A stretch of DNA of 64,000 bases. Source: Bifidobacterium polysaccharolyticum. Lineage in GTDB: Bacteria > Actinomycetota > Actinomycetes > Actinomycetales > Bifidobacteriaceae. This document shows positions 44,368 to 64,000 of this stretch, piece by piece. The stretch is from assembly GCF_016101585.1 (NCBI RefSeq), contig NZ_JACFQG010000002.1:248001-312000 (forward strand). The letters run 5' to 3'. Each line of letters starts with the position of its first letter. Within the stretch, counting starts at the first letter, position 1. A program made the translations under genes and the position numbers. The notes under the pieces were generated by a model. The model was not told the origin of the DNA. It made no database searches and was given only the letters and a program-made list of their open reading frames with translations.

Positions 44368-46257
44368 TTATAGATAGTTCCGCTGCAAATCGCGGATTCT
44401 CTCGTATTCCTGATGGGCCTTTATCGAGGATTCGATATGCGCCACCTCAGGAGTGGCCACCTCCCAGTAAGCGTCGGCTGCATCGTCACGTTCCACCGGT
44501 GCCACCTTTGCATAGATGGCGGTGATTTGATCACTGACGAGCGCTTTTCGCAAAGCCTGACGCAGTTGGTCCGCATCCTCGACGGTATAGGTCTTGACCC
44601 CATACCCTTCAAGAATCTTGGGAAAATCAACCTGCATCGGTTCCTTAAGATTCTGACGGCCGTTATCTCCCCGGTAGTAATACTTGGTCTCAAATCCTTG
44701 AGAGCCGACCTGCATGGACAGTGAATGAATCGATCCATAGCCGCCGTTATCCAAGAGCAGCAATATGATTTTCTCCCGCTCCTGAATCGCCGTCAATACA
44801 TCCTGGTGGTACATGATGAAGGAGGCATCGCCGATGAAGGAGAAGATCTCCCTGCTCGGATCAGCCATTCGCATACCCAGGGCTGCAGGAATCTCATAAC
44901 CCATGCAGGAATAGCCGTATTCGACCGAGTAGCCAAGCGGACTACCCGCCTTCCAGAGCTTCTGAAGATCGCTGGGCATGGACCCGGCGGCGTTCACGAC
45001 CACATCCTGGGGACGGGCGAATTCGTTGACGATGCCGATGACCTCCTTCTGCCCCAGCCCCTCAGTGCCCGGGATATGCTGGACCATGCGGTCCACAGCC
45101 TGCCGTTGCTCGTCGGCCTTGGCCACGGCCTCACGGCGATAATCCTCGTCCACCTGCCAATCGCCCAAAACCTCCTGCAGCTCGCTCAGCGTCTCACGGG
45201 CATCGCCAATGACCGGAATGGCTGCCTCCTTGTGCGCATCGAATGACAGGACGTTGATATTGACGAAGTGCACCTGGGGATTCTGGAACATCGTGTTGGA
45301 TGCCGAGGTGAAATCCGTATAGCGTGTGCCGACACCGATGATCAGGTCTGCAGTGTGGGCCAGGCGGTTGGCAAAGCGCAGTCCCAGAGCACCCATGGGG
45401 CCCGAGTTCATCGGATGGTCATAGGGCAGGGCGCCCTTGCCTGCCTGGGTGCTTCCGACCGGAATCCCGGTCTTCTCGGCGAATTCCGCCAAAACCTTGC
45501 TGGCCGACGAATACACGACACCTCCGCCAGCAATGATCAGCGGGCGCTTCGAACTCTTGATGGCCTCAGCAGCCTGGGCCAGGGAATCCTTGTCTGGTCT
45601 GGTCCTGGGGATTCGCCAAATCCGCTCACGGAAGAGGTCGAGGTCAAAATCGTAGGCTTCGGCCTGCACATCCTGAGGCAGGCAAAGCGTCACAGCACCA
45701 GTGGTAGCCGGGTTGGTCAAAGTCTCCATGGCTCTCATCAGGGAGGCCGACAGCTGCTCGGGCCGGTCGATTCGGTCCCAGTACCGACTGACGGCCTTAA
45801 AGGAGTCATTGGCGGAAATATCGTTGGACTGTTCATTCTCAATCTGCTGCAGAACCGAGCCTGTCCGTCGGGTCGAGAAATAGTCGCTGGGAAGCAAAAG
45901 GACCGGCAGACGGTTGACCGTCGCAGTGCCAGCCGCAGTGATCATATTCGCAGCACCGGGTCCTATCGAGGTAGTGACGGCCATGGCTCCCATTCTGTTC
46001 ATCTGGCGGGCGTAGCCGACGGCTATATGTGCCATGCCCTGCTCGTTCTTCCCCTGGATGAAACGGAATCGGTCGATCTCCTCCAAAAGCGCCTGCCCGA
46101 CCCCGGCTACATTGCCATGGCCCAGAATGCCCAGAGCCCCGCCGAAGAAGGTGGATACCTGCCCATCCCTTTCCACTTTCTGAACCTCCAGAAAGCGAAC
46201 GACGGCCTGTCCAACAGTCAGCCTGACTGTATTACCAGTCTTGCTCGTCCCTATCAT
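44368..46257 (-). CDS. iolD: 3D-(3,5/4)-trihydroxycyclohexane-1,2-dione hydrolase IolD
   Basis: A thiamine-diphosphate enzyme of 629 residues that opens the inositol ring, giving 5-deoxy-D-glucuronate. The N-terminal part shows KNEQGMAHIAVGYARQMNR with the cofactor-activating Glu, and the middle domain has STQAGKGALPYDHPMNSGPMG. The ThDP/Mg motif is FIGDASFIMYHQDVLTA followed by DNGGYGSI (about 475-510). The IolD-specific STRRTGSVLQQIE segment supports the call over other ThDP enzymes. It is transcribed divergently from the iolT-like gene and is the only inositol gene left of the intergenic region. Confidence 0.95.
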   Translation of the reverse strand: MIGTSKTGNTVRLTVGQAVVRFLEVQKVERDGQVSTFFGGALGILGHGNVAGVGQALLEEIDRFRFIQGKNEQGMAHIAVGYARQMNRMGAMAVTTSIGPGAANMITAAGTATVNRLPVLLLPSDYFSTRRTGSVLQQIENEQSNDISANDSFKAVSRYWDRIDRPEQLSASLMRAMETLTNPATTGAVTLCLPQDVQAEAYDFDLDLFRERIWRIPRTRPDKDSLAQAAEAIKSSKRPLIIAGGGVVYSSASKVLAEFAEKTGIPVGSTQAGKGALPYDHPMNSGPMGALGLRFANRLAHTADLIIGVGTRYTDFTSASNTMFQNPQVHFVNINVLSFDAHKEAAIPVIGDARETLSELQEVLGDWQVDEDYRREAVAKADEQRQAVDRMVQHIPGTEGLGQKEVIGIVNEFARPQDVVVNAAGSMPSDLQKLWKAGSPLGYSVEYGYSCMGYEIPAALGMRMADPSREIFSFIGDASFIMYHQDVLTAIQEREKIILLLLDNGGYGSIHSLSMQVGSQGFETKYYYRGDNGRQNLKEPMQVDFPKILEGYGVKTYTVEDADQLRQALRKALVSDQITAIYAKVAPVERDDAADAYWEVATPEVAHIESSIKAHQEYERIRDLQRNYL

Positions 46258-46707
46258 TTCCTCGCACCTTTCCTATTAGCCGCCGTGACCCTCTCAAACT
46301 GGGGTAATGCAAACCCCGCGCTGTCCGCCATGGACTAGGCCTGCGGGGAACCGTCACCGGTTGCCCTAGTTCGCTAGGGTTAACGGTCCATAGGTCAATC
46401 ATGGCCGTCGACGGCCGCGCTCTTGGCAACCAAGGTATAAGAGCAAGTGATTTCATAACTATCCTGCATTTTTTGTATATCGACCCGGTACCCCGCAATG
46501 CCATGCCCTTCTCCCTGCCCTCCGACAGCCCAAGGCGGAGGTCGAACCGGAATGAAGCCGTCTTAGAAAATGGCTAGGAATCTTATAAATACTTGCAGAC
46601 CTGCCAGGATCACCCCTGGAGGATGCAAGGTCGTGGCATAGAACTGGAGAACAACCAATGTCTGGAGACAGAGTCGTGCCAGACAGTATCAGCTGAAAGG
46701 AATGGCC
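46258..46707. promoter_or_regulatory. Divergent control region between iolD and the iolT-like gene
   Basis: About 450 bases without a gene. It contains CCCTAG-TTCG-CTAGGG (46364-46379) inside a longer imperfect hairpin with ACCG/CGGT, and a nested inverted repeat where TTGCA (46593-46597) pairs with TGCAA (46624-46628) and CCAGG (46604-46608) with CCTGG (46615-46619). A TATAAA at 46584-46589 may be the -10 for the right-hand operon. Either repeat could be an operator. Confidence 0.45.
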
Positions 46708-48150
46708 ATGTCGTCATTTGAAACGCTGGCTAAAGCCGAGAGCCCCGCTGAGCTATCCAAACGCCGCACCCATTACACCCGGCTGATGATATGCCTGGGA
46801 CTGTGCGCAGGGGGGCTGTATGGATACACGCTGACAGCCCTATCCGGCGCACTGATAACCATGAACATAGGATCAGGCCAGCTGGGCCGCCCCACCGACT
46901 TCGAACAGGGGCTCATCACCTCGGCAATGCTGCTGAGCGCAGCGGTAGGCGCCTTTGCGGGCGGCAACCTGAACAACCGCCTTGGGCCGAAAAAGATGAT
47001 CCTGACCGGAGCAGTACTGGCAATCCCCGGGGCAGTAATCTGCGCTGTAACGCCCAGCATTCTTATCCTTTGCCTGGGCAGGGTCATTCTCGGCCTGGCA
47101 ATCGGCTTCACATCGACCATCGTCCCTATTTATCTGGGGGAGATGACCGGAGCCGCCAATAGGGGACGCATCGTCTCGGTCAATTCAGTCATGATCGTGG
47201 TCGGACAGCTCCTGGCTGTGTCAGTCAACGCCATCCTGACACAGATGGGCATCGGCTGGAGGGCCATGCTGTGGGCGGCCGTCGTCCCAGGTATCCTGCT
47301 CTTGCTGATAGCCCTTGTCATCAAGGACAGCCCCGATTACCTGATTCGGCACGGTCTGCAGGATCAGGCCATCCAGCTTCTGACTGAAACACGGGACCTG
47401 CCCGAGGCCGAGCAGACCTTCAAATCACTTTCCCAGGCCCGTGAGAACAGCAGTCAAACCGCCGCCCGGAACAACTCCGACAGCAGTTTTGCGACACCAT
47501 GGCTGCGGAGGGTGCTGATAATTGGGATCGGGCTGGCTTTGGTTAATCAGCTCAGCGGGCAGAATATGGTCAATTACTACGCCCCCACTATTTTCACCAA
47601 GACCTTGGGCTTTGCACCATCCATGTCCATACTGGCCACCGTACCTGTCATCTTGGTTTCCGCCATCGCCGCCACAATAGGCGGCCTGGGTTTCATCGAC
47701 AAAATCAATCGACGGACCATTCTGACTGTCGGCCTGGTCGGCACGATTATTTTCCTGGTCGCTATCGGCATCAGCTACCGCTTTATCGATCCCTCCAGTA
47801 GTTCCCGTACTGCCTCCTGGGTCATGATCGTCATGATGATGATCTATCTGGTGTTTGTGCAGGGCATGGTAGCGCCGGTCACATGGCTCTTGATGGCCGA
47901 AGTCTTCCCCACCAGCGTCCGTGGCAAGGGCATGGGATACGCCAACATAGCGCTCAATTTGGTCAACTTCCTCTTGTCGCTGATCTTCCCGCTCCTGCTC
48001 AACGGTCTGGGAGGCTCGGGAACCTACCTGCTGTTCGCCCTTATCAACATTGGGTGCCTGGTGTTTGCAATCACCATGATTCCTGAGACCAGAGGGAAGA
48101 GCCTGGAGGAGATCGAGGCCGAAGAACGCGCCTTGGGACAGCGGAAGTAA
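46708..48150 (+). CDS. iolT: Sugar porter MFS transporter, inositol-type
   Basis: A 480-residue proton symporter with twelve membrane helices of the sugar porter family. Family motifs are present: NLNNRLGPKKMILTGAVL (loop 2-3), GRVILGLAIGFTS, the central SPDYLIRHG, a QLSGQNMVNYYAPTIF segment in helix 7 and PETRGKSLEEIE at the end. ATG 46708 (MSSFETL) has AAAGGA at the right spacing; ATG 46702 is too close to it. It opens an operon with iolB, so myo-inositol or an isomer is the likely substrate. Confidence 0.87.
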   Translation: MSSFETLAKAESPAELSKRRTHYTRLMICLGLCAGGLYGYTLTALSGALITMNIGSGQLGRPTDFEQGLITSAMLLSAAVGAFAGGNLNNRLGPKKMILTGAVLAIPGAVICAVTPSILILCLGRVILGLAIGFTSTIVPIYLGEMTGAANRGRIVSVNSVMIVVGQLLAVSVNAILTQMGIGWRAMLWAAVVPGILLLLIALVIKDSPDYLIRHGLQDQAIQLLTETRDLPEAEQTFKSLSQARENSSQTAARNNSDSSFATPWLRRVLIIGIGLALVNQLSGQNMVNYYAPTIFTKTLGFAPSMSILATVPVILVSAIAATIGGLGFIDKINRRTILTVGLVGTIIFLVAIGISYRFIDPSSSSRTASWVMIVMMMIYLVFVQGMVAPVTWLLMAEVFPTSVRGKGMGYANIALNLVNFLLSLIFPLLLNGLGGSGTYLLFALINIGCLVFAITMIPETRGKSLEEIEAEERALGQRK

Positions 48151-48173
48151 AAGGATTGAATAAAGGAGACAGG

Positions 48174-49055
48174 ATGACTCAATGGGTATATCCAAACGGC
48201 AGCGCAGCCAAGGGTGATTGGGAGGTGAGCCTGGGAGCCTCGGACTCGCAACCCGTTCCAGGTTGGCAGTACACCGGCATCAGGGTCGCCAACCCCCGGA
48301 AAAACCAGGTTCTTACCCTGCCTGCAGCAGATGAGGAACGCCTGGTCGTCCCCCTCTTCCAGCGATTCGATGTCAGAACACCGGATGGTCTTTATCACCT
48401 GCGCGGACGCCAAAACGTCTTCACTGCACCAACCGATGTCGTATATGTAGGCACGGGAACGCCCTTGGAGATATATGGCCCATCGGGGGGACGGGTTGCC
48501 GTCGCATCAGCGCCCGCCAGCACCCACTACCCAGACCAGCTGGTCAAGGCGGAAGACAATGAAACCGTCCTCAGGGGCAACGGGCCCACCTCCAGGCAAG
48601 CCCGAAACTTCGGCATGATGAACAACATCGAAGCTGAACGGCTGTTGGTGTGCGAGGTCATCACCCCCAGCGGCAGCTGGTCCTCCTACCCCGTCCACAA
48701 ACACGACCAGAACAATGACCATGAGACCGCTCTCGAGGAAATTTACTACTTCCAGATGAGGGCGCTGCCGGGTGCCCCTGACCAGGCCCGGCCCCTGGCC
48801 TACCAGGGTGCCAGCACAGCCGACGAACGGCCTCTGAATATTATGACCGAAGTGCATCCCGGCGATACGGTGCTCATCCCCTACGGCTGGCATGGCCCCT
48901 CCATCGCCGCCCCCGGATACGACCTTTACTATCTGAATGTGATGGGCGGCGGCGGACAGCGCGACTGGAAGGTGACCATCCGCGACGATCAGACCTGGAT
49001 CAATCAAGCCCTGCAGAGCCAGCCCCGCAATGATCGGCTGCCCATGATCGACTGA
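48174..49055 (+). CDS. iolB: 5-deoxy-glucuronate isomerase IolB
   Basis: Converts 5-deoxy-D-glucuronate to 2-deoxy-5-keto-D-gluconate. The 293-residue protein is a double cupin; the metal ligands are in SYPVHKHDQ and ETALEEIYYFQ, and the C-terminal cupin has VLIPYGWHGPSIAAPGYDLY with the family's NVMGG after it. ATG 48174 is preceded by AAAGGAGA, better than the in-frame codon at 48156. It follows the iolT-like gene by 23 bases. Confidence 0.95.
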   Translation: MTQWVYPNGSAAKGDWEVSLGASDSQPVPGWQYTGIRVANPRKNQVLTLPAADEERLVVPLFQRFDVRTPDGLYHLRGRQNVFTAPTDVVYVGTGTPLEIYGPSGGRVAVASAPASTHYPDQLVKAEDNETVLRGNGPTSRQARNFGMMNNIEAERLLVCEVITPSGSWSSYPVHKHDQNNDHETALEEIYYFQMRALPGAPDQARPLAYQGASTADERPLNIMTEVHPGDTVLIPYGWHGPSIAAPGYDLYYLNVMGGGGQRDWKVTIRDDQTWINQALQSQPRNDRLPMID

Positions 49056-49121: not shown

Positions 49122-50231
49122 ATGGACATCACCGGCGCTGTGCTGAGGACGATGGGTACGCCTGGCCCGTATGCACGGACCGGACCGCTGTCTATCGAAC
49201 ACCTTGAACTGGATCCGCCCCAGCAGGACGAGATATTGGTCAAGGTCACCGCTTCCGGCATCTGCCATTCGGACCTGTCGGTCGTCAACGGCAGCAGACC
49301 AAGGCCCATGCCGATGCTGCTGGGCCATGAGACCACGGGCATCGTGCAGGCCTTAGGGCCTGGGGTTGAGGACTTGAAGGTCGGACAGCATGTCACCCTG
49401 GCCTTTCTGCCCCGCTGCGGCAAGTGCGCCAACTGCCTGACCGGAGGCCGGCTGCCCTGCACTCCTGGCTCCAAGGCCAATCAGGCCGGCACCCTGATGA
49501 ACGGTGGCATTCGCATCCACAAGGGACCGGAGCGGATATACCACCACGTAGGCGTCTCCGGCTTCGCCACCTACGCCGTCGTCGATCGACGCTCAGCTGT
49601 GCCTGTCCCAGAGGAACTTCCCTCTGCCATAGCAGCCGTCCTGGGTTGCGCCGTCCTCACCGGCGGAGGCGCCGTGCTCAACGCCGCCGACCCCCAGGAC
49701 GGACAGGATGTCATGGTGGTCGGACTGGGCGGAGTCGGCATGAGCGCCCTGTTGGCGGCTGCAGCACTGGGCAGAGGCCGGGTCATAGGGGTGGACCGCA
49801 ACAAGGATAAGTTCAACGATGCCTTGGGCATGGGCGCCACCGATGTCTACACGGTTGACGAAGCCCTAAGCAAGGGCATCAAAGCGCCAATCGTCATTGA
49901 GGCAGCCGGCGCTCCAGGAGTCCTGGACCAGGCCTTCGAACTGACGGACATCGGTGGCAAAACCATCACGGTAGGGTTCCCGGATCCCTCGGTCAGAGCA
50001 TCACTGCCATCCAGCGTCATCACCGGTGAGGCACGAACAGTCATCGGCAGCTACCTGGGATCGGCGGTCCCCGCTCAAGACATACCCAGATATGCCCGAC
50101 TATGGCTGGACGGCAAGCTGCCGGTGGAAAAGCTCATCAGCAATCACATCAGGCTTGATGACATCAACGAAGCCATGGACGATCTCGACAGGGGCCAGGC
50201 CTTGCGGCAAATCATCGAATTCGACTCATGA
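49122..50231 (+). CDS. Zinc-dependent alcohol dehydrogenase
   Basis: A 369-residue medium-chain dehydrogenase. Catalytic zinc ligands are the Cys in ASGICHSDLS and His-Glu in LLGHETTG; the structural zinc is bound by a four-cysteine lobe starting CGKCANC. The Rossmann motif is GLGGVGMSALLAAAALG. It resembles class III-like long forms. It lies between iolB and the aldehyde dehydrogenase in one operon, so it may reduce a semialdehyde or glycolaldehyde made during inositol breakdown. Substrate unproven. Confidence 0.88.
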   Translation: MDITGAVLRTMGTPGPYARTGPLSIEHLELDPPQQDEILVKVTASGICHSDLSVVNGSRPRPMPMLLGHETTGIVQALGPGVEDLKVGQHVTLAFLPRCGKCANCLTGGRLPCTPGSKANQAGTLMNGGIRIHKGPERIYHHVGVSGFATYAVVDRRSAVPVPEELPSAIAAVLGCAVLTGGGAVLNAADPQDGQDVMVVGLGGVGMSALLAAAALGRGRVIGVDRNKDKFNDALGMGATDVYTVDEALSKGIKAPIVIEAAGAPGVLDQAFELTDIGGKTITVGFPDPSVRASLPSSVITGEARTVIGSYLGSAVPAQDIPRYARLWLDGKLPVEKLISNHIRLDDINEAMDDLDRGQALRQIIEFDS

Positions 50232-50286: not shown

Positions 50287-51750
50287 GTGAAGTGGACAAA
50301 GAAAATCGACACAGTGCTGCCAGAGGCATCGAACACCCTGTTTATCAACGGGCAATGGAGGAAATCCCGGACGGGAAGAACATTCGCCGTCGACAACCCA
50401 TCAACTGGCGAGCGCCTGTTCGAACTGGCCGATGCCGGAGCTGAGGATGCCATTGATGCCTTGGATGCCGCAAGTTCCAGCGCCGAAGGCTGGGCAGCCT
50501 CTACGCCCGTCGAGCGCCGAAATCTGCTGGACAACAGCTACGAGGCGGTCATGGACAACAAGAAGCTCTTTGCCGAGCTCATGACCAAGGAAATGGGCAA
50601 GACATACCAGGAAGCCCTGGGCGAGGTCGATTATGGAGCCGGCTTCCTCAAGTGGTTTGCCGAAGAGGCCATGCGCTCATATGGACGGACCTTCCACCTG
50701 CCCGACGGCCGCAAGGGCCTGGTGACCCACGATCCCGTGGGCCCCTGCTATCTGGTGACGCCCTGGAACTTCCCCTTGGCTATGGCCACCCGGAAAATCG
50801 GACCTGCGCTGGCAGCTGGTGACACCATGATTGTCAAGCCCGCAGGTTTGACGCCGCTGACAACCCTGGCCATGGTCGAGGTCCTCCGCCAGGCCGGCGT
50901 ACCCGACGGAGTAGTCAACGTCATTACTTCAGAGCACTCCCCCGAAATATCCGATGCGCTCTTCGCCGACGGTCGACTGCGGAAGATCAGTTTCACAGGC
51001 TCCACCACTGTTGGCAAGACCCTGATGAAGCAGGCCGCCGACCAGGTTCTGCGCACATCCATGGAGCTGGGTGGCAACGCCCCCTTCCTGGTCTTCGACG
51101 ACGCGGACATCGACCAAGCAGTCCAGGGGGTCATGATGGCCAAGTTCCGCAACAACGGCCAGGCCTGCACCTCCGCCAACAGAATTTTCGTCCAGGACGG
51201 CATAGCCGATGAATTCGTCAACAAGCTTCAGCGGGCGGTCAGCGCTCTGAAAGTCGGGGACGGCATGGATCCCTCCACCGATATCGGGCCGCTTATCAAC
51301 AAGAAGGCAGTGGACCGCATGGAGCGCATCGTCAAAGATGCCGTGGATGCCGGGGCCGACCTGCTGGCAGGCGGCCATCGCTCCGATCTCGGCGAATGTT
51401 TCTTCCAGCCCACACTCCTGGACCATGTGCCGCGGGAGTGCGAAGTCTTCCGTGAGGAGATTTTCGGCCCCGTGCTGCCTATCTCCCGATTCGGCAGCGA
51501 CGAAGAAGGAATGAAGGCAGCCAATGACACCATCTACGGTCTGGCCGCCTATGCCTACACCAGATCGATCAAGCGCAGCGAGTGGATCCAAGGCCATGCT
51601 CAAGCCGGCGTGCTCGCCATCAACTCCGGTGTCCTCTCCGATGCTTCAGTGCCTTTCGGGGGTGTCAAGCAGTCCGGCATGGGCCGTGAGGGCGGCAGCG
51701 AAGGCATCTACGAGTACCTGACCACCAAGTACACGCTCCTTATTCCCTGA
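50287..51750 (+). CDS. NAD(P)-dependent aldehyde dehydrogenase, succinate-semialdehyde type
   Basis: A 487-residue non-acylating aldehyde dehydrogenase most like GabD/SSADH. The catalytic Cys lies in RNNGQACTSANRIFVQ (about residue 294) and the general base Glu in SMELGGNAPFLVFDDAD (about 259); the cofactor site shows PWNFPLAMATRKIGPALAAG and FTGSTTVGKTLM. It lacks the IolA (methylmalonate-semialdehyde dehydrogenase) pattern and would make a free acid rather than acetyl-CoA. Placed at the end of the iolT-iolB-adh operon, before a strong terminator, it probably oxidises a C3 or C4 semialdehyde from inositol. Confidence 0.9.
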   Translation: MKWTKKIDTVLPEASNTLFINGQWRKSRTGRTFAVDNPSTGERLFELADAGAEDAIDALDAASSSAEGWAASTPVERRNLLDNSYEAVMDNKKLFAELMTKEMGKTYQEALGEVDYGAGFLKWFAEEAMRSYGRTFHLPDGRKGLVTHDPVGPCYLVTPWNFPLAMATRKIGPALAAGDTMIVKPAGLTPLTTLAMVEVLRQAGVPDGVVNVITSEHSPEISDALFADGRLRKISFTGSTTVGKTLMKQAADQVLRTSMELGGNAPFLVFDDADIDQAVQGVMMAKFRNNGQACTSANRIFVQDGIADEFVNKLQRAVSALKVGDGMDPSTDIGPLINKKAVDRMERIVKDAVDAGADLLAGGHRSDLGECFFQPTLLDHVPRECEVFREEIFGPVLPISRFGSDEEGMKAANDTIYGLAAYAYTRSIKRSEWIQGHAQAGVLAINSGVLSDASVPFGGVKQSGMGREGGSEGIYEYLTTKYTLLIP

Positions 51751-51833: not shown

Positions 51834-51990
51834 TTCGGAAACGCGCACATCTGATATCAGTATTTATAGAAAACGCCTCTCCCCCTCATTGGGACGCTCA
51901 ATTTTCCTTAGGCTTATAGCAGTCAGATCCACCGCCGATAACGATGTCGGAGCATTGGATACGGCATCATGCCAACTTGGAGGAACACCC

Positions 51991-53415
51991 ATGTCCACCA
52001 CCTATAGGGAGATCAGCCGCAACCTCGACATAAAGAAGCTGGCCGCCAACCGACGGCGATACTCCAGACTCATGATCGCTCTGGGCATTTTCGGAGGCGG
52101 TCTGTATGGCTACACAACCGTGGTCCTATCGGGGGCCCTGGTCACCATGAACTTCCACGGACAGGGACTCAACGCCTTCCAACAGGGAGTCCTGACAGCA
52201 GGGCTCCTCCTGGGCGCTGCCGTGGGATCCTTCCTGGGAGGCTCGTTGGCCGACCGATACGGCCGGAAGAAAATGATCATCACCGGTTCCTGCATCTCAC
52301 TGCTGGCTTGCGCGGCCTGTGCACTGGCGACCGACTTCTCCCTCTTCCTCATTGCCAGAATCTCAGTCGGACTGGGTGTTGGATTCACCTCCTGCGTGGT
52401 GCCTATGGCCATCGGAGAGCTGGCTTCGGCGGACAAACGTGGCCGATTGGTGTCTGTCAACTCGGTAATGATCAATATTGCGCAGCTCCTGGCTACCTGC
52501 GTCAACGCCATATTGGCCAAGGTCGCCGACTGGCATGCCATGCTCTGGGCCAGCGTAGTGCCCGCGCTTTGCCTGGTCATCATCGCTTTTCTTATTCATG
52601 ACACACCCAACTACTTCATTCGCCATGGCATGGACGATCAGGCCGTGCGCGTCCTGCTATCCACACGCGATGAACAGGAAGCCAAGCAGACCTATGAGTC
52701 CATGCAGACCAGTCTGGCCTCCTCCAGCCGAGACTCGCAGCACGCCAAGAAGGAGAGCTTCTCCACGCCCTGGCTCCGGCGGGTGCTCACCGTTGGCATA
52801 GGCCTGGCCGTCATGCAGCAGTTCTCCGGAGTCAACGCCATCAACTTCTTTGCCCCCACCATCTTCTCGACAACGCTGGGATTCGGATCCACTGATTCAG
52901 TCATCGCCATGGTGCCGGTCATGCTGGTCTCGGCCATAGCCGCCGTGGTATTTGGCCTGATTCTGATCGACAAGATCGATCGCAGAACCGACCTGCTGAT
53001 AGGCACGGCCGGCGTGACCGTATTCCTGACCGCTATCGGCATCTGCTACCTCTTCATTCAGGGGGGTAACACCAGCAAGGCTATGTCCTGGACCTTGATC
53101 GCCATCATGATGATTTACCTGCTCTTCGCCCAAGGAAGCATGGCACCCGTCACCTGGCTGATGATCGCCGAAATCTTCCCCACCGCAGTCAGGGGCCAGG
53201 GGATGGCATACGCCAATATCGCCGTCAACACCTCCAGCTTCATACTGACATTGATTTTTCCGGTCATGCTCGAAAAACTGGGTGGTGCAGGCTCCTTCTT
53301 CGTTTTCGCACTGATCAACGCGGGCGCCTTCCTTTTCACCAAGGCCCTGGTTCCGGAGACACGCGGCAAAACCTTGGCCCAGATAGAAGCGGAGGCCCGG
53401 CAACGCGTTAAGTGA
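51991..53415 (+). CDS. Second sugar porter MFS transporter
   Basis: A 474-residue paralogue of the transporter at 46708-48150 with the same motifs (SLADRYGRKKMIITGSCI, RISVGLGVGFTS, QQFSGVNAINFFAPTIF, PETRGKTLAQIE). The two are clearly related along their whole length yet well diverged, which suggests different inositol isomers or related polyols as substrates. ATG 51991 has TTGGAGGAA upstream; an earlier in-frame start at 51889 is rejected. It is the first gene of a short operon with the TIM-barrel gene at 53460. Confidence 0.87.
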   Translation: MSTTYREISRNLDIKKLAANRRRYSRLMIALGIFGGGLYGYTTVVLSGALVTMNFHGQGLNAFQQGVLTAGLLLGAAVGSFLGGSLADRYGRKKMIITGSCISLLACAACALATDFSLFLIARISVGLGVGFTSCVVPMAIGELASADKRGRLVSVNSVMINIAQLLATCVNAILAKVADWHAMLWASVVPALCLVIIAFLIHDTPNYFIRHGMDDQAVRVLLSTRDEQEAKQTYESMQTSLASSSRDSQHAKKESFSTPWLRRVLTVGIGLAVMQQFSGVNAINFFAPTIFSTTLGFGSTDSVIAMVPVMLVSAIAAVVFGLILIDKIDRRTDLLIGTAGVTVFLTAIGICYLFIQGGNTSKAMSWTLIAIMMIYLLFAQGSMAPVTWLMIAEIFPTAVRGQGMAYANIAVNTSSFILTLIFPVMLEKLGGAGSFFVFALINAGAFLFTKALVPETRGKTLAQIEAEARQRVK

Positions 53416-54963: not shown

Positions 54964-55905
54964 TCAGAGAGTACCCAGACCGCAGGAAGCGAGATACTCG
55001 CGGGTCTTGATCGCATTAGGCAGAGGGAAGGAGGGATCAGCAGGATAGAGATCCTGCTCGCAGATCACATACATCTCCTTGTCCAAGGCCGCCAAGGCGT
55101 CGACCAGCTCCTGCATATCAGGCTCGCCGGCCGGGGGTGTCACCGATGCGCCGCGGGCCACCGCTTCGCCGAAGGGCCAGTCCTTCTCATGGGCTTCCTT
55201 GACCAAAGCCGGGTCGAAAGCCTTGATATGAACGTAGGTGATCCTTTCAGGATACTTCTTGACCATCTCGATAGGGTCACCGCCGCCGTACACGATATGG
55301 CCGGTATCCAGGCACAGATTCACATATTCAGGATCCGTGTTCTCGAAGATCCTGGCGATCTCCTCAGGGGTTTCGATATGGGAATCGCCATGAGGATGCA
55401 GGACCATCTTCAGCCCATAGTCCTCTTTCATGATCTTGCCCAGCTTGTTGGCATTGGTAATGTAGGTGTTCCAAGCCTCGGGGGACAGGACGCGGTCATC
55501 GGTCCACTCCCAGGTCTTGTCATCACGGTAGAGCGGCGGCAGATGCACGATGTACTCTGCGCCGACAGCGGCATGGGTCTCGGCGATCTCGCGGAAGTGC
55601 CGCTCGGTCTCCGGCCATTGTTCCGGCTTGTGCAGGACTCCCCAACTGGTTCCGGCCACCACCTTCATGCCGTATTCATCGGTCCAAGCCTTCAGCTCCT
55701 TGGGATCCTTGGGGAAGTAACCCCAGGGGCCTGTTTCAAGAATCTCGAATCCGGCCTCAGCCATCTCCTTCATTGTCTGACGGGGAGGAATCTGCTTGTC
55801 GTCATTGTCGAACCAGACACCCCACTGGTCCGGGCATACACCGATGGACAGCTTGGAGTATTTGGGATCCTTCAGATTGCGCGCCTTGCCCTTGTTGTTC
55901 GTCAT
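54964..55905 (-). CDS. iolE: Inosose dehydratase IolE
   Basis: Dehydrates scyllo-inosose to 3D-(3,5/4)-trihydroxycyclohexane-1,2-dione. The 313-residue TIM barrel begins with the IolE pattern LSIGVCPDQWGVWFDNDDKQ, then GFEILETGPWGYFP. Metal ligands appear in MVLHPHGDSHIET, VNLCLDTGHIVYGG, TYVHIKAFD and YVICEQDLY. It follows iolG by nine bases on the same strand; together they carry out the first two steps of the pathway. Confidence 0.9.
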   Translation of the reverse strand: MTNNKGKARNLKDPKYSKLSIGVCPDQWGVWFDNDDKQIPPRQTMKEMAEAGFEILETGPWGYFPKDPKELKAWTDEYGMKVVAGTSWGVLHKPEQWPETERHFREIAETHAAVGAEYIVHLPPLYRDDKTWEWTDDRVLSPEAWNTYITNANKLGKIMKEDYGLKMVLHPHGDSHIETPEEIARIFENTDPEYVNLCLDTGHIVYGGGDPIEMVKKYPERITYVHIKAFDPALVKEAHEKDWPFGEAVARGASVTPPAGEPDMQELVDALAALDKEMYVICEQDLYPADPSFPLPNAIKTREYLASCGLGTL

Positions 55906-55914
55906 GATCGCGCC

Positions 55915-56934
55915 TTACTGCTCTTGGAAGAAGGACGGGGTCTCGGGCAGCTCGATCTTCTTGCGGACGCCGCCCTCGTCGCGCGAAGCGAAGAGCGCAT
56001 CGCAGGTCACGCAGGCAATGAGGCCATCCCAGGAGGTGGGGCCGGTCAGCTGGTCGGCGTTGATGCCGTCCACGAAGGCCTGCATCTCGCGGTCATAAGC
56101 CTCCTTGAAACGCACGGTGAAGTCATTGGGAATGGACTCGCGCTCGGACTCGGCCACCTTGACAATGGTGTTCTGCGGAGTGTGCAGGGCGATCTCGCCC
56201 TCCTCGCAGACCACACGGCAGTTGATGTCGTAGCCCATGTGGTTGCAGACGAAGACCTCCAGGTCGATGTGGACGCCGGACTTGGTGTCCATCTCGATGA
56301 TCTGCGGATCATGCAGCCCCTTGTGGGTGTAGCGGGTCTGCTTCTTGGGCAGGAAGCAGAAGACCGAGTCATAGTCCTCGCCCAGCAGCCAGTGCAGCAC
56401 GTCCACCTCATGGATGGCGGTCTCCACAATGGCCATATCGGAGTTGTAGTTGAGTGGGGTGTCCTCGTTGCGATGGGCGCAATGAATCAGCAGGGGCTCA
56501 CCGTAGGTCTTGTTCTGGATGGCCTGCTTGATCTCCTGATAGCCCTGATCGAAGCGGCGCATGAAGCCCACCTGGACCAGACGCTTGCCTCCGGCGATCT
56601 CGGCGTCGACCACACGACGGCAGCCGGCAGCGGAGGTGGTCAGCGGCTTCTCACTGAGCACGTACTTCTTCTGCTTGATGGCTTCGAGAACAAACTGCTC
56701 ATGGGTCTCATGGGGCAGGGTCGCCACCACGACAGCGTCGATGTCCGGGGAGTCAATCAGGTCCTTGCCTGTTGCATAGACCTTGGCCCCGTACAGATCA
56801 GCCATCTTCTGAGCCCGTTCCGGTATCAGATCGCAGACGCCGGCGAGAGTGGCACCGTTGATTCTGGTCGAAAGACGCTTGGCATGGTCGGAACCCATGG
56901 TTCCAACACCGATGATTCCAATACGTAGTGTCAT
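55915..56934 (-). CDS. iolG: Inositol 2-dehydrogenase IolG
   Basis: Oxidises myo-inositol to scyllo-inosose with NAD. A 339-residue Gfo/Idh/MocA protein: Rossmann motif GIIGVGTMGSDHAK (5-18), the Lys of EKPLTTSAAG (about 95) and the catalytic Asp/His region TAIHEVDVLHWLLGED (about 172-187). The FMRRFDQGYQEIK segment is typical of inositol dehydrogenases. First gene of the iolGE operon, downstream of the AraC regulator gene in the same direction with 201 bases between. Confidence 0.92.
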   Translation of the reverse strand: MTLRIGIIGVGTMGSDHAKRLSTRINGATLAGVCDLIPERAQKMADLYGAKVYATGKDLIDSPDIDAVVVATLPHETHEQFVLEAIKQKKYVLSEKPLTTSAAGCRRVVDAEIAGGKRLVQVGFMRRFDQGYQEIKQAIQNKTYGEPLLIHCAHRNEDTPLNYNSDMAIVETAIHEVDVLHWLLGEDYDSVFCFLPKKQTRYTHKGLHDPQIIEMDTKSGVHIDLEVFVCNHMGYDINCRVVCEEGEIALHTPQNTIVKVAESERESIPNDFTVRFKEAYDREMQAFVDGINADQLTGPTSWDGLIACVTCDALFASRDEGGVRKKIELPETPSFFQEQ

Positions 56935-57135: not shown

Positions 57136-58026
57136 CTATGAAAAATTCCGCCGAAACTCGGAAGGCGAGACTCCCACAAGCTTCTTGAAGGAGGACGAGA
57201 AGTGCGAGCTCACCGTGAATCCGCACTCCTTGGTGATCTGAGCGATAGGGATCTTGCTGGTCGTCAGCAGGTATTTGGCATGCGAGATTCGGCATTCCAG
57301 GACGAATTGATGCACACCCATGTCCAAATGGCGCTTAAAAGCATGAGAGAGCTGCGACTCGCTCGTATTCAGAATCTTGCTGAGCGCATGGATGGATACA
57401 TCCGAGTCGAAATGCCTATTGATGTATCGTATGGCCGCTGACAGATCCGGGGGTACATTGTCGTCATAGTGCACCTCCAGGCTCTCATCGACTCGGCGAG
57501 TGAGCAGCACCAGCACATGCTCCAAACGGCGGTGGAGCAATTCGTCCAATTGTCTTCGCGACAGTGACACATCCCCGGAGCGCATCTGGTCCAGTATGGA
57601 GATGAGTTCATCCCCGGCATCTTGAGAATCCGTGAACAAAGGACCGTTGACATCCTGCAGATAGTCAGCGTATGCCTGTACGCCGTTGCCCTGAAAATGC
57701 AGGTAGGAGAATCGCGTCAGCCCGCTTGATCGGTAATCATTATGGTTTTTGCAGTCCAGCAAAACAACGTCTCCTGCATGGGCAGTAAATGAAGCACCCT
57801 CATAGACATAATCAAGACTGCCTGACTCAATGAAGAACAGCAGGAAGGAGTTCATATACTCACGTTTGCAGGAATAGTCCGAATTGACCCGGTATGTCCC
57901 GCCCCACAGCGGATGGAGGAAGACAGCGCGCGCCAGCCTTCCTGCGTCATTTATCTGTATGGCTTTCTTCCCGAGAATGCCGGATTCATCCGCCGGTATC
58001 CATTTTTTATAATCCTCAGGTGTCAT
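57136..58026 (-). CDS. AraC-family transcriptional regulator
   Basis: A 296-residue regulator with an N-terminal cupin-like ligand-binding domain and two helix-turn-helices in the last 100 residues: VSIHALSKILNTSESQLSHAF and KIPIAQITKECGFTVSSHFSSSFKK. A ribosome site AAGGGGAT precedes ATG 58026. It lies between the iolGE operon and the divergent LeuB-type gene, so it is the probable local activator of inositol genes. This differs from the DeoR-type IolR of bacilli and the LacI/GntR-type regulators of other actinobacteria. Confidence 0.9.
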   Translation of the reverse strand: MTPEDYKKWIPADESGILGKKAIQINDAGRLARAVFLHPLWGGTYRVNSDYSCKREYMNSFLLFFIESGSLDYVYEGASFTAHAGDVVLLDCKNHNDYRSSGLTRFSYLHFQGNGVQAYADYLQDVNGPLFTDSQDAGDELISILDQMRSGDVSLSRRQLDELLHRRLEHVLVLLTRRVDESLEVHYDDNVPPDLSAAIRYINRHFDSDVSIHALSKILNTSESQLSHAFKRHLDMGVHQFVLECRISHAKYLLTTSKIPIAQITKECGFTVSSHFSSSFKKLVGVSPSEFRRNFS

Positions 58027-58387
58027 ATCCCACGATCCCCTTTACTCGCGTCCTTGCCAGTTCAGGTCCATGAATTGTGCTTTTATTGCTTTATTCTATT
58101 CGATTGCGTTGTTGAAATGTTGTCTGCTCTGTGTCCCCTCCCGGGCAAGACCCAAGGACTGATGCACTTGAGGCAGCAGAAGGCACGGATATTCAGCGTA
58201 CTGCCTGTCGAATGATCCGCTGTATTTTCATGTTATGCAGCTATTGGACAGTCCTCTACATACTTTGATAAGCAAATCAAGGGAATGGCGAATTTTCGAC
58301 ACGATTATGCGAATATTGATATGAAAATCCCGTATATCGGTCTTTTTAGTGGTTTTCTGATTGCCATACCGCCGGGCAATCATTAAC
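58027..58387. promoter_or_regulatory. Divergent control region, AraC regulator and LeuB-type gene
   Basis: About 360 AT-rich bases without a gene. An inverted repeat, GATTGCC (58359-58365) with GGCAATC (58375-58381), ends six bases before the ATG of the LeuB-type gene and could act as an operator or sequester the start. Confidence 0.4.
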
Positions 58388-59449
58388 ATGAAAGGCATGA
58401 ATACCCAAACATCAAAGAAGACATTGGACATCGCGGTCATTCCCGGTGACGGAATCGGCCGTGAAATCGTTCCAGTCGCGCAAGCTGTACTCAAGGAAGC
58501 CGTTGGCGACAGCGTTTCCTTTAACTACACCAACTATGATCTGGGCGCAGACCGATACCTTCGTGACGGTACCCTCATCACAGATGACCAACTCAAGGAT
58601 ATGGACCAAAAGGATGCCATACTCCTGGGGGCTGTCGGCGATCCACGAGTCAAGTCAGGAATCCTGGAGCGCGGCCTGCTGCTCAAGCTCCGCTTCGCAT
58701 TTGACCAGGCCATCAACATGCGGCCCTCCAAACTCTACCCCGGCGTCAAATCCCCTTTGGCCGACCCTGGCGACATCGACTTCGTCGTCATCAGAGAGGG
58801 CACGGAAGGCCTGTATTCCGGCATGGGCGGTCTGCTTCGCATGGGCACTGAACACGCCATAGCAACCGAGACCTCGATGAACACCGAATTCGGCATCGAG
58901 AGGGCGGTGAGGTTTGCCTTCGAACTGGCTCGCAAGCGCGGAGGCAAGAAGCACGTAACCATGGTCAATAAGACCAACGTACTCTACTATGCCGGTCAAC
59001 TCTGGCTGTGGGTCATGGACAAGGTCGGCAAGGAGTACCCCGACGTGACCTATGACTACCTGCATGCCGATGCCTGCACCATCTTCCTGGTCACCGATCC
59101 CTCCCGGTTCGACGTGATTGTGACCGACAACCTCTTCGGAGACATCATCACTGACGAGGCCGGCGCAGTTGTGGGCGGAATCGGCTATTCGGCATCAGCC
59201 AACATCAACGTGACCGATGAGCATCCCTCCATGTTCGAGCCCATCCACGGCTCCGCCCCCGACATTGCGGGCAAGGGTATAGCCAACCCTTCGGCCACGG
59301 TCCTGTCTGCCGCCATGCTCCTGCAGCACTTCGGGTACGACGAAGCAGCCGCCCGCATCGATCGCGCCGTGGAAGCGGATGCTGAGGAGAATTCCTCACG
59401 CAAACGCAGCACAGATCAAATCGGCCAGGACATCATCGCAAGACTGTAA
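58388..59449 (+). CDS. LeuB-type beta-decarboxylating dehydrogenase
   Basis: A 353-residue member of the isopropylmalate/isocitrate/D-malate dehydrogenase family. These enzymes oxidise a 2-hydroxy acid with a 3-carboxylate and release CO2. Visible hallmarks are IAVIPGDGIGREIVPVAQ, LRFAFDQAINMRPSKLYPG with substrate-binding Arg residues, the Lys in HVTMVNKTNVLYY, the metal site DVIVTDNLFGDIITDEAG and SMFEPIHGSAPDIAGKG. Overall it looks most like actinobacterial 3-isopropylmalate dehydrogenase. Its place among inositol genes, next to an AraC regulator and iolH, suggests a catabolic paralogue (for example D-malate oxidation). No leuA, leuC or leuD adjoins. ATG 58397 is an alternative start. Confidence 0.85.
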   Translation: MKGMNTQTSKKTLDIAVIPGDGIGREIVPVAQAVLKEAVGDSVSFNYTNYDLGADRYLRDGTLITDDQLKDMDQKDAILLGAVGDPRVKSGILERGLLLKLRFAFDQAINMRPSKLYPGVKSPLADPGDIDFVVIREGTEGLYSGMGGLLRMGTEHAIATETSMNTEFGIERAVRFAFELARKRGGKKHVTMVNKTNVLYYAGQLWLWVMDKVGKEYPDVTYDYLHADACTIFLVTDPSRFDVIVTDNLFGDIITDEAGAVVGGIGYSASANINVTDEHPSMFEPIHGSAPDIAGKGIANPSATVLSAAMLLQHFGYDEAAARIDRAVEADAEENSSRKRSTDQIGQDIIARL

Positions 59450-59591: not shown

Positions 59592-60461
59592 ATGAAAATC
59601 GCATTGGATCCCACACCATTCCATCCCGACCTGCCATTCCTGGAACTGCCCAAGGCGGTAGCGGACGCCGGCTATAAGTACATGCAGCTGGCTCCGCACG
59701 ATGCCTTCCTGCCGTTTTATGTGCATCCCAAGGCGGACGACGAACTGGTCAAGGACTTCGCGGCCGCTCTGAAGAAGGCGAACGTTGAGCTGTGCTCGCT
59801 GCTGCCGGTCTACAGAACCTCCTGGCCCGACGAGCGAGAGCGGCAGACAGCAGTGCGCAATTGGAAGCGGGCCATCGAAATCGCGGCTCTGCTGGACGTG
59901 CACGTCATCAACAGCGAATTCAGCGGCATACCGGAGCGCTATGAGGAGTCCGAGGCTGCCTTCTACGCGACCATGGAGGAAATACTGCCCCTGCTTGAGC
60001 GGGAAGGCATCCGCATCAACTTCGACCCGCATCCCTACGATTTCGTCGAGAACGGCATTGATGCGCTAAGGATCACACGAGGCCTCAACAGCCCACTGGT
60101 CGGCGCGGTCTATGTGGCTCCTCATACCTTCCACTACGGCAATAATGTGGATGGGATCACCGCCCTGGCCGGCAAACGACTCAGGTCGGTCTATATCTCA
60201 GACAGCTATGACCATCATCGTTCGCATGATCTGCGTTATATAGCCAATCCTCCAGGGACCAACGCCCGCGTTCACCAGCACCTGAAAGTGGGCGACGGCG
60301 ATGTGGACTTCAAGGCCCTGTTCGCCGCCCTGAAGAAGAACGGGTTCCTGGACCGGGAGGATTCCATCATCGTCTCCAACGTATTCGCCGAGGACGAGAC
60401 CGCCCATGAAACGTCCGTCTACCAGCGTGAAACCATAGAACGCCTGGTGGCGGAAGCCTGA
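59592..60461 (+). CDS. iolH: Inositol-cluster TIM-barrel protein IolH
   Basis: A 289-residue xylose-isomerase-like barrel of the IolH type found in actinobacterial and enterobacterial inositol clusters. The match to the family is close: KIALDPTPFHPDLPFLELP, GYKYMQLAPHDAFLPF, VINSEFSGIPERYEESEAAF, YDHHRSHDLRYIANPPG and RVHQHLKVGDGDVDFKALF. Metal ligands of the fold (Glu, Asp, His) fall in these segments. The reaction of IolH is not well settled in the literature. It is followed by a strong hairpin that ends the unit. Confidence 0.9.
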   Translation: MKIALDPTPFHPDLPFLELPKAVADAGYKYMQLAPHDAFLPFYVHPKADDELVKDFAAALKKANVELCSLLPVYRTSWPDERERQTAVRNWKRAIEIAALLDVHVINSEFSGIPERYEESEAAFYATMEEILPLLEREGIRINFDPHPYDFVENGIDALRITRGLNSPLVGAVYVAPHTFHYGNNVDGITALAGKRLRSVYISDSYDHHRSHDLRYIANPPGTNARVHQHLKVGDGDVDFKALFAALKKNGFLDREDSIIVSNVFAEDETAHETSVYQRETIERLVAEA

Positions 60462-60575: not shown

Positions 60576-61364
60576 ATGAACCTCTGGCTGATCATCGGTT
60601 TGGCGGCGGCTGCTGTCCTGATCGGCCTGGACAAGTCGTTGATACCAGGCTCAGCCATCCTGGCGGTGGCCGCTCTGGCGTCACTGATGCCCGCCAAAGA
60701 AGCCACCGAGCTGACGCTGATCATGGCTGTCGTCGCTGACTGGACCGCCATCTGGGCCTACCGGCATGACATTGTGCTGGCTTCCCTGCTTAGACTGTTG
60801 CCGACTGTGACCATAGGCATTCTTGCCGGCGTCTGGTTCTTGTATCACGCTGACAATGACGCGACCAAAAAGATTATAGGGGTCATACTTGCCTGCTTCA
60901 TTGCGCCTTACTTCCTCTCGCGCATAAGGTCCGCGCTGAAAACGCGGCAGAGGGGCAAGAGTCAAGCCCCCCAAGTCGAAACCAGAAGCAAGAACAGGCA
61001 GAAGCAGTGGATAAGCGTGGCATTCCACATGCTCTGCGGCGTTCTGGCGGGTTTTACCACCATGGTGGCCAATGCCGGAGGACCGGTCACAGCCGTCTAT
61101 TTCAGCAGCGAGCGGTTGCCGGTCAAGCAATTCCTAGGCACCACGGCAGCTTTCTACTTAGTGGTGAATATGGTGAAGCTGCCTTTCGCAGTCGGACTGA
61201 ACACAACCAACAGAGAAACCGCGCTTGCCCTCCTATGCGTTCTCCCACTCACATTGCTCGCCGTCTTCTGCGGCAGGCTGATCGCCGGTCACGTCAACCA
61301 GAAAGCCTTTACTGCGGCAATCTATATCTTCGCAGTCATCGCCGTCATCAACCTTCTGGTCTGA
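60576..61364 (+). CDS. TauE/SafE-family membrane exporter
   Basis: A 262-residue protein with about eight membrane helices, of the TauE/SafE (DUF81) family. Both internal repeats show the typical glycine/proline-rich signature: IGLDKSLIPGSAILAVAAL at the N-terminus and GFTTMVANAGGPVTAVYF in the middle. Members move small organic or sulfonated anions. It leads an operon with the truncated dikinase (11-base gap) and probably the transketolase genes, so it may export an acidic end product of the pathway. Substrate unknown. Confidence 0.88.
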   Translation: MNLWLIIGLAAAAVLIGLDKSLIPGSAILAVAALASLMPAKEATELTLIMAVVADWTAIWAYRHDIVLASLLRLLPTVTIGILAGVWFLYHADNDATKKIIGVILACFIAPYFLSRIRSALKTRQRGKSQAPQVETRSKNRQKQWISVAFHMLCGVLAGFTTMVANAGGPVTAVYFSSERLPVKQFLGTTAAFYLVVNMVKLPFAVGLNTTNRETALALLCVLPLTLLAVFCGRLIAGHVNQKAFTAAIYIFAVIAVINLLV

Positions 61365-61375
61365 AAGGCGCCATT

Positions 61376-62608: not shown

Positions 62609-63472
62609 ATGAACGAAAGCACCGATGCGGACAAGGTCAGAGAACTCAAACAGTTCGCTGGTCGGATCAGACAGGAGACGGTCAAGGAAATCTCGGCCTT
62701 TGGGACCGGCCACGTAGGGGGATCCCTGTCGATAGCCGACCTTTTGGCCGTCCTGTACGGGCAGGAGATGAATATCAAGCCCGAGGATCCACAGTGGGCC
62801 GACCGGGACTGGTTCGTCCTGTCCAAGGGCCACTGCGCCCCGGCCCTATACGCCACACTCGCCTTGCGCGGATACTTCCCCATGGATTGGTTGAATACCC
62901 TCAACCGCAACGGGACCAACCTTCCCAGCCATGCCGACAGACTCAAGGTTCCCGGAGTGGACGTAACCGCTGGGTCCCTGGGTCAGGGGGCCTCAGTAGC
63001 CGTCGGCGTTGCCCTGGGACTGAAAATGGATGGTCGGGACAACAAGGTCTATCTGGTCATAGGAGACGGCGAGAGCCAGGAGGGGCAGATTTGGGAGATG
63101 GCCCTTTTCGCCGCCCAACATCGCCTGGGCAATCTGATTGCTTTCATAGATTATAACGGCCTGCAACTGGACGGATACTGCAAGGACATCTGCTCCTTGG
63201 GAGATGCCACAGCCAAGTTCGAGGCTTTTGGGTGGCAGGTCGTTGACGTTCCCGATGGCAATGACGTCCCCTCCATTCTTCAAGCTTTGGAGACAGTCCG
63301 CAGCAAGGCACAAAAGGCCGACGACCGACCTTCAATGATCGTGCTTCATACGGTCAAGGGCCTGGGATGGTCTGAGATTGCCGGAACTCCGAAGAGTCAT
63401 TCAACATCAATCAACGAGCAGCAGCGCGACCAGGCTTTGGCTGAAATCCAAACAATGATGAATGCAGCCTGA
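62609..63472 (+). CDS. Transketolase, N-terminal (ThDP-binding) subunit
   Basis: A 287-residue half-transketolase. Visible are FGTGHVGGSLSIADLLAVLY, LSKGHCAPALYATLALRGYF, the LPSHAD and GSLGQGASVAVGVALGLKM segments, and the ThDP/metal motif GDGESQEGQIWE ending in DYNGLQLDG. Split transketolases pair with a C-terminal subunit, here encoded 58 bases downstream. Such pairs often serve special pathways beside the housekeeping full-length enzyme. AAGGAAA precedes ATG 62609. It follows the truncated PPDK gene by 69 bases. Confidence 0.93.
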   Translation: MNESTDADKVRELKQFAGRIRQETVKEISAFGTGHVGGSLSIADLLAVLYGQEMNIKPEDPQWADRDWFVLSKGHCAPALYATLALRGYFPMDWLNTLNRNGTNLPSHADRLKVPGVDVTAGSLGQGASVAVGVALGLKMDGRDNKVYLVIGDGESQEGQIWEMALFAAQHRLGNLIAFIDYNGLQLDGYCKDICSLGDATAKFEAFGWQVVDVPDGNDVPSILQALETVRSKAQKADDRPSMIVLHTVKGLGWSEIAGTPKSHSTSINEQQRDQALAEIQTMMNAA

Positions 63473-63530
63473 GCGTGAGATCCATGCGCACGAGCCCAAT
63501 TGCACACGGACAGATGAAAAGGGAAGAGGA

Positions 63531-64000
63531 ATGATAGAACATACTTTGGAAAACGAGAAACAGGAAATGCGACAGGCCTTCTGCCAGTGCCTCCTCGATC
63601 TGGCGGCCGACGAGGAGCGCCTGGTTCTGCTGGATGCTGATTTGATGAGTGCCATGGGCACCAAGCCCTTCCAGGAAGCCTACCCCGAACGGACAGTGGA
63701 CTGCGGCATCCAGGAAGCCAATATGATCGGCACTGCAGTAGGGCTCTCCCTTACCGGCAAAATACCGTTCGCACACACCTTCGCTTCCTTCATGAGCCGA
63801 AGGGCCCTGGACCAGATCTTCATTTCCGGCGCCTACAGCAAGGCCAATGTCAAACTCATTGGCTCCGACCCGGGAATCACCGCCAAGACCAATGGCGGCA
63901 CCCACATGTCCTTTGAGGATATGGGGATCATGAGGGGCATCCCCACAATGACCGTCCTGGAAGCCACCGACATCACCATGCTGAAATGGATAATGGGTTG
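63531..64000 (+). CDS. Transketolase, C-terminal subunit (3' end beyond window)
   Basis: The first 156 codons of the partner subunit, beginning at ATG 63531 with GGAAGAGGA upstream. The pyrimidine-binding domain shows LVLLDADLMSAMGTKPF, RTVDCGIQEANMIGTAVGLS with the catalytic Glu that activates ThDP, and FAHTFASFMSRRALDQI. The C-terminal domain is beyond the window. With the N-terminal subunit it should form an active C2-transferring enzyme. Confidence 0.92.
   Translation, partial: MIEHTLENEKQEMRQAFCQCLLDLAADEERLVLLDADLMSAMGTKPFQEAYPERTVDCGIQEANMIGTAVGLSLTGKIPFAHTFASFMSRRALDQIFISGAYSKANVKLIGSDPGITAKTNGGTHMSFEDMGIMRGIPTMTVLEATDITMLKWIMG

Follow-up and report, generated by a model that had tools for sequence, protein, structure and literature searches.

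A window of 64,000 nucleotides of Bifidobacterium polysaccharolyticum (contig C7:248001-312000 of a 2.23-Mb genome that is 99.98% complete) carries, between 44 and 64 kb, a cluster of inositol-catabolic genes, here called locus A, together with genes for a split transketolase (TK), a succinate semialdehyde dehydrogenase (SSADH)-like enzyme and a LeuB-family dehydrogenase. We put at roughly 0.7 the probability that these genes encode a TK-type inositol pathway, the lower half of which would run through TK, SSADH-like and LeuB-like enzymes. The TK step is well supported by its recurrence, its operon order and its mutual exclusion with iolC; the remainder is a chemically exact proposal with substrates predicted from sequence, the TK step being the best supported and the LeuB step the least.

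The proposed pathway

IolG, IolE, IolD and IolB would make 2-deoxy-5-keto-D-gluconate (DKG), which would stay unphosphorylated. Read from C6, DKG matches D-fructose in its C3 and C4 hydroxyls, an arrangement that TK requires, and the split TK, formed of an N-terminal (TKN) and a C-terminal (TKC) subunit, would accept it as a D-threo ketose donor. Thiamine pyrophosphate (TPP) would carry C5 and C6 to an acceptor aldose phosphate. Glyceraldehyde 3-phosphate is the probable acceptor, which would give xylulose 5-phosphate, and C1-C4 would be released as (R)-3-hydroxy-4-oxobutanoate. The SSADH-like enzyme would oxidise this aldehyde to D-malate, and the LeuB-like enzyme would carry out its oxidative decarboxylation to pyruvate and CO2. 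Phosphoketolase, which we take bifidobacteria to possess, would split xylulose 5-phosphate into glyceraldehyde 3-phosphate and acetyl phosphate, so regenerating the triose phosphate as a catalytic carrier. The net conversion would be of inositol to acetyl phosphate, pyruvate, CO2 and 3 NADH, with no ATP-spending kinase step.

The sequence-only reading had already proposed D-malate as the intermediate, and computation bears out its stereochemistry: the hydroxyl left after removal of C5-C6 gives (R)-malate, which is D-malate. The computed electron balance also closes (acetate 8, pyruvate 10 and 3 NADH 6, summing to the 24 of inositol). A second TK cleavage, as in the sulfo-TK pathway discussed below, is excluded on chemical grounds, because the product lacks the next hydroxyl. 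A non-phosphorylated retro-aldol cleavage of DKG to malonate semialdehyde and dihydroxyacetone was set aside, since no aldolase is seen in the shared core and such a reaction would also leave the LeuB-type enzyme without a role.

Gene content of loci A and B

Families were assigned with NCBIfam and Pfam profiles, and the gene set described in the sequence-only reading is real, with assignments of differing firmness. Over their cut-offs stand iolD (44368..46257, minus strand; TIGR04377, 835 bits against 715), encoding the TPP-dependent trihydroxycyclohexane-1,2-dione (THcHDO) hydrolase; iolB (48156..49055, plus strand; TIGR04378, 228 against 205), encoding 5-deoxyglucuronate isomerase; and the LeuB-family dehydrogenase gene (58361..59449, plus strand; PRK03437 (NF002898), a 3-isopropylmalate dehydrogenase model, 539.6 against 393). 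Under theirs are the IolG-like inositol dehydrogenase (55915..56934, minus strand; NF052679, 390 against 540), the IolE-like protein (54964..55905, minus strand; TIGR04379, 162 against 290) and the SSADH-like aldehyde dehydrogenase (50287..51750, plus strand; TIGR01780, 547.8 against 646.35), for which GabD (3jz4) is the best solved relative. Among the canonical iol markers, iolD and iolB were thus found in the window, and iolC and iolA were not.

TKN (62609..63472, plus strand; closest solved chain 6yak, from a split TK) is the only TK half complete within the window, as TKC (63531..64000, plus strand, with an alternative start at 63462; closest solved chain 6yaj) continues to 64511 beyond it (L003:462-1511), and is followed by rho on the opposite strand. 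A partial, stand-alone C-terminal domain of phosphoenolpyruvate (PEP)-utilising enzymes adjoins TKN at about 61370-62539 (PF02896, profile positions 19-220 of 293), and is perhaps a remnant of pyruvate phosphate dikinase.

Chance does not account for this gene set: contig C9 of B. polysaccharolyticum repeats most of it, and other genera have parts of it. The C9 cluster, locus B (C9:55001-90000; L005, L006), holds a true iolE (398 bits), iolD, iolB, SSADH-like and LeuB-like genes, two TIM-barrel genes, a major facilitator superfamily (MFS) transporter gene and two IclR-type regulator genes. As the true iolE of the genome sits here, the window by itself does not make up the complete pathway. Identity between the two loci is 72% for IolD, 68% for IolB, 71% for SSADH, 78% for the LeuB-like enzyme, 56% and 81% for TIM barrels 1 and 2, 53-56% for the MFS transporters and just 28% for the IolE-like protein.

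Searches for the canonical lower half

A standard iolC-iolJ-iolA set elsewhere in the genome had been named as the finding that would overturn the TK proposal. This candidate was rejected for iolC, and for iolA within the aldehyde dehydrogenases (ALDHs) scanned, iolJ lying outside the search. For iolC (TIGR04382), the genome including the window gave five matches, none over the 300-bit cut-off. The neighbours of the best match (154.7 bits) are genes of a uronate operon, for UxuA (mannonate dehydratase), tagaturonate reductase and 2-keto-3-deoxy-6-phosphogluconate (KDPG) aldolase, so it is probably a 2-keto-3-deoxygluconate (KDG) kinase. The Aldedh profile gave six matches in five frames. All three full-length ALDHs are SSADH-type, namely the two SSADH-like genes and one PRK09406-type enzyme, and none of these three is of the CoA-acylating IolA type; two partial matches (88.7 and 73 bits), in frames of 955 and 455 amino acids outside the scan, are taken from frame length and match as AdhE and ProA. 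The only other genome of the family with an iolD-TK cluster in full, G101, likewise has no iolC over the cut-off, its best match (182.6 bits) lying more than 500 kb from iolD.

It might still be supposed that a standard phosphorylated route operates, with a divergent PfkB kinase and an aldolase encoded elsewhere serving as IolC and IolJ, the SSADH-like enzyme replacing IolA, and TK being unrelated. Several PfkB kinases do exist, the genome searches did not cover iolJ, and the kinase candidate of G101 shares its stretch with a DeoC aldolase. However, the best candidate in B. polysaccharolyticum belongs to the uronate operon, iolC is present in 0 of 9 TK-bearing rows of the tally given below, and the TK genes sit within iol operons whose genes overlap; we regard this explanation as improbable.

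Recurrence of split transketolase at inositol loci

Among 151 genomes of the family, six besides B. polysaccharolyticum have TKN-like separate frames, at 43-90% identity, and iolD occurs in 2 of 189 family genomes, B. polysaccharolyticum (two copies) and G101. In the latter, TKC, TKN and iolD are contiguous on one strand, followed by SSADH, two IclR genes, an MFS gene, iolB, the LeuB-like gene and TIM barrel 2, with identities of 75% for SSADH, 71% for iolB and 81% for the LeuB-like gene. A metagenome-assembled genome (MAG) labelled Bifidobacteriaceae (L154) has an IolD outside the TK-linked clade described below, and no other query match as an open reading frame (ORF) in 11.8 kb. In B. asteroides ESL0199 (L055/L056, L193) an eroded copy of the window locus was observed, with iolD and TIM barrel 2 in pieces. 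The frames of the LeuB-like gene (96% identity), TKN (90%) and TKC (86%) are open in this remnant, and the genes between iolD and LeuB were not found there.

Across the phylum, iolD is present in 59 of 396 genomes, at 64 places outside B. polysaccharolyticum, and the 53 contexts fetched contained no TK and no LeuB-like gene, any aldehyde dehydrogenase sharing just 28-33% identity with the SSADH-like queries. Scanning named genomes added 80 iolD loci, in which TK was found only in the B. asteroides remnant and in Acidipropionibacterium jensenii (Propionibacteriaceae). A. jensenii carries TKN-TKC-iolD-ADH-malic enzyme-iolG-like on one strand (L120:7973-16343; ADH, alcohol dehydrogenase), with an iolE-like gene further on, the malic enzyme standing where bifidobacteria carry the LeuB-like gene; a separate, canonical locus holds iolC and iolB.

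In the family of A. jensenii, iolD occurs in 94 of 197 genomes, at 102 places. Twenty of these loci, hand-chosen as low-scoring or second copies plus their partners, were inspected, and split TK was found at seven, a proportion that is no frequency because of that choice; iolC was found at none of the seven. Four loci (L212, L213, L215, L221) share the order iolD-TKN-TKC-iolB, followed by ADH in L213 and L215 or by SSADH in L221, so that some TK loci have an alcohol dehydrogenase in place of SSADH. In these four, as in G101 and L211, the TKN and TKC frames share 4 bp. Five genomes (G546, G642, G645, G681, G769) combine a TK locus with a second iolD locus, which bears iolC in four of the five, G642 being the exception; G625, another carrier of split TK, also has a second, iolC-type locus.

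The three sets together give 153 rows (53 + 80 + 20), with G101 and the window outside them and with a duplicate, a remnant, short contigs and the hand-picked part included. TK with iolC was found in none, TK without iolC in 9, iolC without TK in 112 and neither in 32, iolC having been sought with a single query, the A. jensenii IolC. The nine TK rows represent eight distinct loci, one of them eroded (L193), as L216 is the same locus as L120; an SSADH-like gene (46-54% identity) is present in two, ADH in four (two being the same locus) and iolB in five. Neither a LeuB-like gene nor an A. jensenii-type malic enzyme was seen in the 144 rows without TK, and the ALDHs that occur in 87 of them are 25-36% identical to the queries.

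A FastTree phylogeny of 154 IolDs, with L193 (the remnant) and L216 (the duplicate) left out, contains a TK-linked clade of 10 tips from 9 genomes, with support of 1.0 and a stem of 0.43, to which the window IolD belongs. All nine genomes carry split TK; locus B is counted here via the TK of locus A, and for L214, a clade member whose 20-kb stretch has no TK, a split TK lies some 13 kb upstream. The earlier claim that TK acts on unphosphorylated DKG is strengthened by the TKN-TKC pair between iolD and iolB in the four propionibacterial loci and by the absence of any TK-iolC overlap among the 153 rows, DKG itself being the predicted substrate.

Two transketolase lineages

TKN and TKC keep the motifs for TPP binding and catalysis (GDG, NG, the Glu in GIQEANM and aligned histidines), residues presumed to have their usual transketolase roles. 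The window type and A. jensenii have D and N at the positions aligned with human TK H416 and D424, which we take to be the phosphate-side histidine and an aspartate contacting a substrate hydroxyl; G101 and six propionibacterial TKs of its group have Y and S, A or V there. The TK pocket is therefore changed in both lineages. These changes are no proof of DKG use, as window-type relatives without iolD share them.

Two separate groups occur at iolD loci in the TK tree. The window and A. jensenii fall in one, with the B. asteroides remnant and three iolD-free relatives, and G101, the propionibacteria and G960 fall in the other. We lean slightly towards the broader interpretation of a kinase-free Actinomycetota pathway, for which two split-TK lineages would have been recruited independently of each other, both cleaving unphosphorylated DKG. 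In bifidobacteria glyceraldehyde 3-phosphate would be the recycling carrier, and inositol would yield acetyl phosphate, D-malate and pyruvate.

Aldehyde and alcohol dehydrogenases

The window SSADH-like gene is 71-75% identical to the copies in locus B and G101, and aligned to 3jz4 its product keeps the set of two arginines and one serine that in GabD presumably binds the substrate carboxylate. Its substrate may be 3-hydroxy-4-oxobutanoate, judging from sequence. Between iolB and this gene lies a zinc alcohol dehydrogenase gene (49122..50231, plus strand) of a kind recurrent in TK-type loci: the A. jensenii gene that follows iolD shares 65% identity with it and 66-70% with genes of L213 and L215, and no ADH match of at least 60% was found in the 144 rows without TK. 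TIM barrel 2 was also considered as a marker of the TK route, and was rejected, as relatives of 50-59% identity occur in iolD loci without TK (L084, L085, L106).

Evidence against the proposed pathway and competing explanations

Several observations weigh against the proposed route. In B. polysaccharolyticum itself, a genome-wide Pfam search for TK returned the split TKN of the window as the only one of its kind, a full-length TK on C5 and, about 90 kb past the locus B stretch examined, a weak C9 match; locus B therefore lacks a TK. The window TK lies 16 kb from iolD. In A. jensenii the TK stretch has no iolB, and ADH and a malic enzyme, an enzyme that prefers L-malate, take the place of the SSADH-like and LeuB-like genes. 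L212 and L210 have no SSADH-like or ADH match in 20 kb, L210 further has no iolB and an IolD outside the TK-linked clade, and several propionibacteria also possess an iolC locus.

Split TKs of these types are, moreover, not confined to inositol. Window-type relatives occur in G125, G064 and G128, genomes without iolD. A class-wide search found TK in 14 of 394 genomes at E <= 1e-60; 11 of the 13 places outside B. polysaccharolyticum were fetched, and none of these 11 contexts has iolD. Ten of these TKs have at most 50% identity, the exception being G960 (58%). This genome carries a propionibacterial-type TK (L244; 57-58%) with no iolD within 20 kb, which weakens a strict one-to-one link between TK and inositol, and ten mechanically picked ORFs from its surroundings gave no match.

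At L057, L059 and L060, window-type split TK without iolD was observed, near an iron alcohol dehydrogenase (L059/L060) and a galactitol-type phosphotransferase system (PTS) EIIC gene; the L057 TK adjoins the IclR pair. Such TKs possibly serve another TK-based sugar route, and it could be argued that the window TK likewise comes from another sugar pathway and merely neighbours the inositol genes. The 16-kb distance would fit, as would the relatives in G064 and G128 that adjoin the iron alcohol dehydrogenase and a PTS subunit (both assignments under curated cut-offs), and the retention of TK and the LeuB-like gene in B. asteroides ESL0199 while iolD is in pieces. Set against this, TKN-TKC adjoin iolD in G101, A. 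jensenii and four propionibacterial loci, and all nine genomes of the IolD clade carry split TK, so that coincidental neighbourhood appears the least probable of the explanations considered.

The LeuB step of the TK-type pathway is the weakest. The LeuB-like enzymes are 78-81% identical to each other and 64-66% identical to the LeuB encoded on C8 (64% for the window copy), and that separate LeuB (577 bits) led us to reject the candidate that the window gene is a plain leucine gene, in a search that did not extend to leuCD. The sequence-only reading is upheld as to family; its D-malate role is a prediction, and the window enzyme falls under the tartrate/D-malate (TTC) cut-off (TIGR02089, 359.6 against 470.4), its sequence being nearer isopropylmalate dehydrogenase. 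The ERGLL motif common to the LeuB-like enzymes and C8 LeuB makes this the weakest step, and the gene was seen solely in bifidobacterial loci. If like their family, the LeuB-like enzymes would act on (2R)-malate-type acids, which suits D-malate.

TauE/SafE-family exporter genes were observed inside two TK-type inositol clusters, in the window (60576..61364, plus strand; PF01925) and at L221:3223-3960, beside SSADH, and might move the C4 acid. A competing scheme keeps the action of TK on DKG, and has the C4 aldehyde reduced or oxidised by ADH or SSADH and excreted, for example by a TauE-type exporter, with another role for the LeuB-like enzyme. Besides the position of these exporter genes, the lack of a LeuB-like gene in propionibacterial TK loci and the replacement of SSADH by ADH in L213, L215 and A. 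jensenii speak for excretion. Nevertheless, none of the three intact bifidobacterial clusters lacks the LeuB-like gene (78-81%), the eroded B. asteroides locus has kept it too, and a malic enzyme forms part of the TK-iolD-ADH run of A. jensenii; excretion is unlikely overall, if the strongest of the alternatives.

Relation to known systems

The proposed route shares with the canonical myo-inositol pathway (IolG-E-D-B-C-J-A) the IolG-like, IolE, IolD and IolB steps to DKG, and differs in having no iolC over the cut-off and no IolA-type enzyme among the full-length ALDHs. Its nearest precedent is the sulfo-TK pathway of sulfoquinovose (SqwGH), in which a TK cleaves a 6-modified, D-fructose-like ketose and similarly forms xylulose 5-phosphate by transfer of the ketol unit to glyceraldehyde 3-phosphate (PMC9594981). 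Unlike in that pathway, the substrate would be DKG from inositol, chemistry would permit a single TK cleavage, and the C4 product would be a carboxylate. The split TK of Carboxydothermus hydrogenoformans (6yak/6yaj), also two-chain, is the best solved relative of both window halves, from which the window enzyme differs by D and N at the H416 and D424 positions and by its inositol context.

Variant inositol catabolism in gut bacteria is exemplified by the inositol-to-propionate pathway of Anaerostipes, with a 3-oxoacid CoA transferase as key enzyme; the available part of that report mentions no TK (PMC8355322), in contrast to the split TK here. A survey of inositol clusters reports all Bifidobacterium species but three to be without them (PMC9430895), inositol genes have been noted in bee-gut Bifidobacterium MAGs (PMC9429759), and Propionibacterium freudenreichii has been described with iolC and iolA (PMC4437456). 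No description of TK in inositol breakdown was found in searches of the open-access PMC literature.

The lower half of inositol catabolism is usually taught as kinase, aldolase and IolA, and a lower half built on TK would be a further branch. If the proposal is true, genome surveys requiring iolC can overlook inositol users, and this would be a second case, beside sulfo-TK, of a catabolic TK acting on a ketose with an acid group replacing phosphate. It also offers testable substrates for SSADH, LeuB and TK genes that bear vague names, both in bifidobacteria of the honey-bee gut and in propionibacteria.

Other genes of the window

Two sugar-porter MFS transporter genes lie on the plus strand, one (46702..48150; TIGR00879, 285 bits against 238; 53% identical to the locus B transporter) probably serving inositol uptake, and a second at 51889..53415 (TIGR00879, 281 against 238). 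Xylose-isomerase-like TIM barrels 1 (53412..54344, plus strand; PF01261; 56% to the locus B gene) and 2 (59592..60461, plus strand; PF01261; 81%) are also encoded, along with an AraC-type regulator (57136..58026, minus strand), for which NCBIfam matches are under their cut-offs. Outside the cluster, at 38338-43827, is encoded a probable surface protein of 1829 amino acids that contains a Listeria-Bacteroides repeat (TIGR02543).

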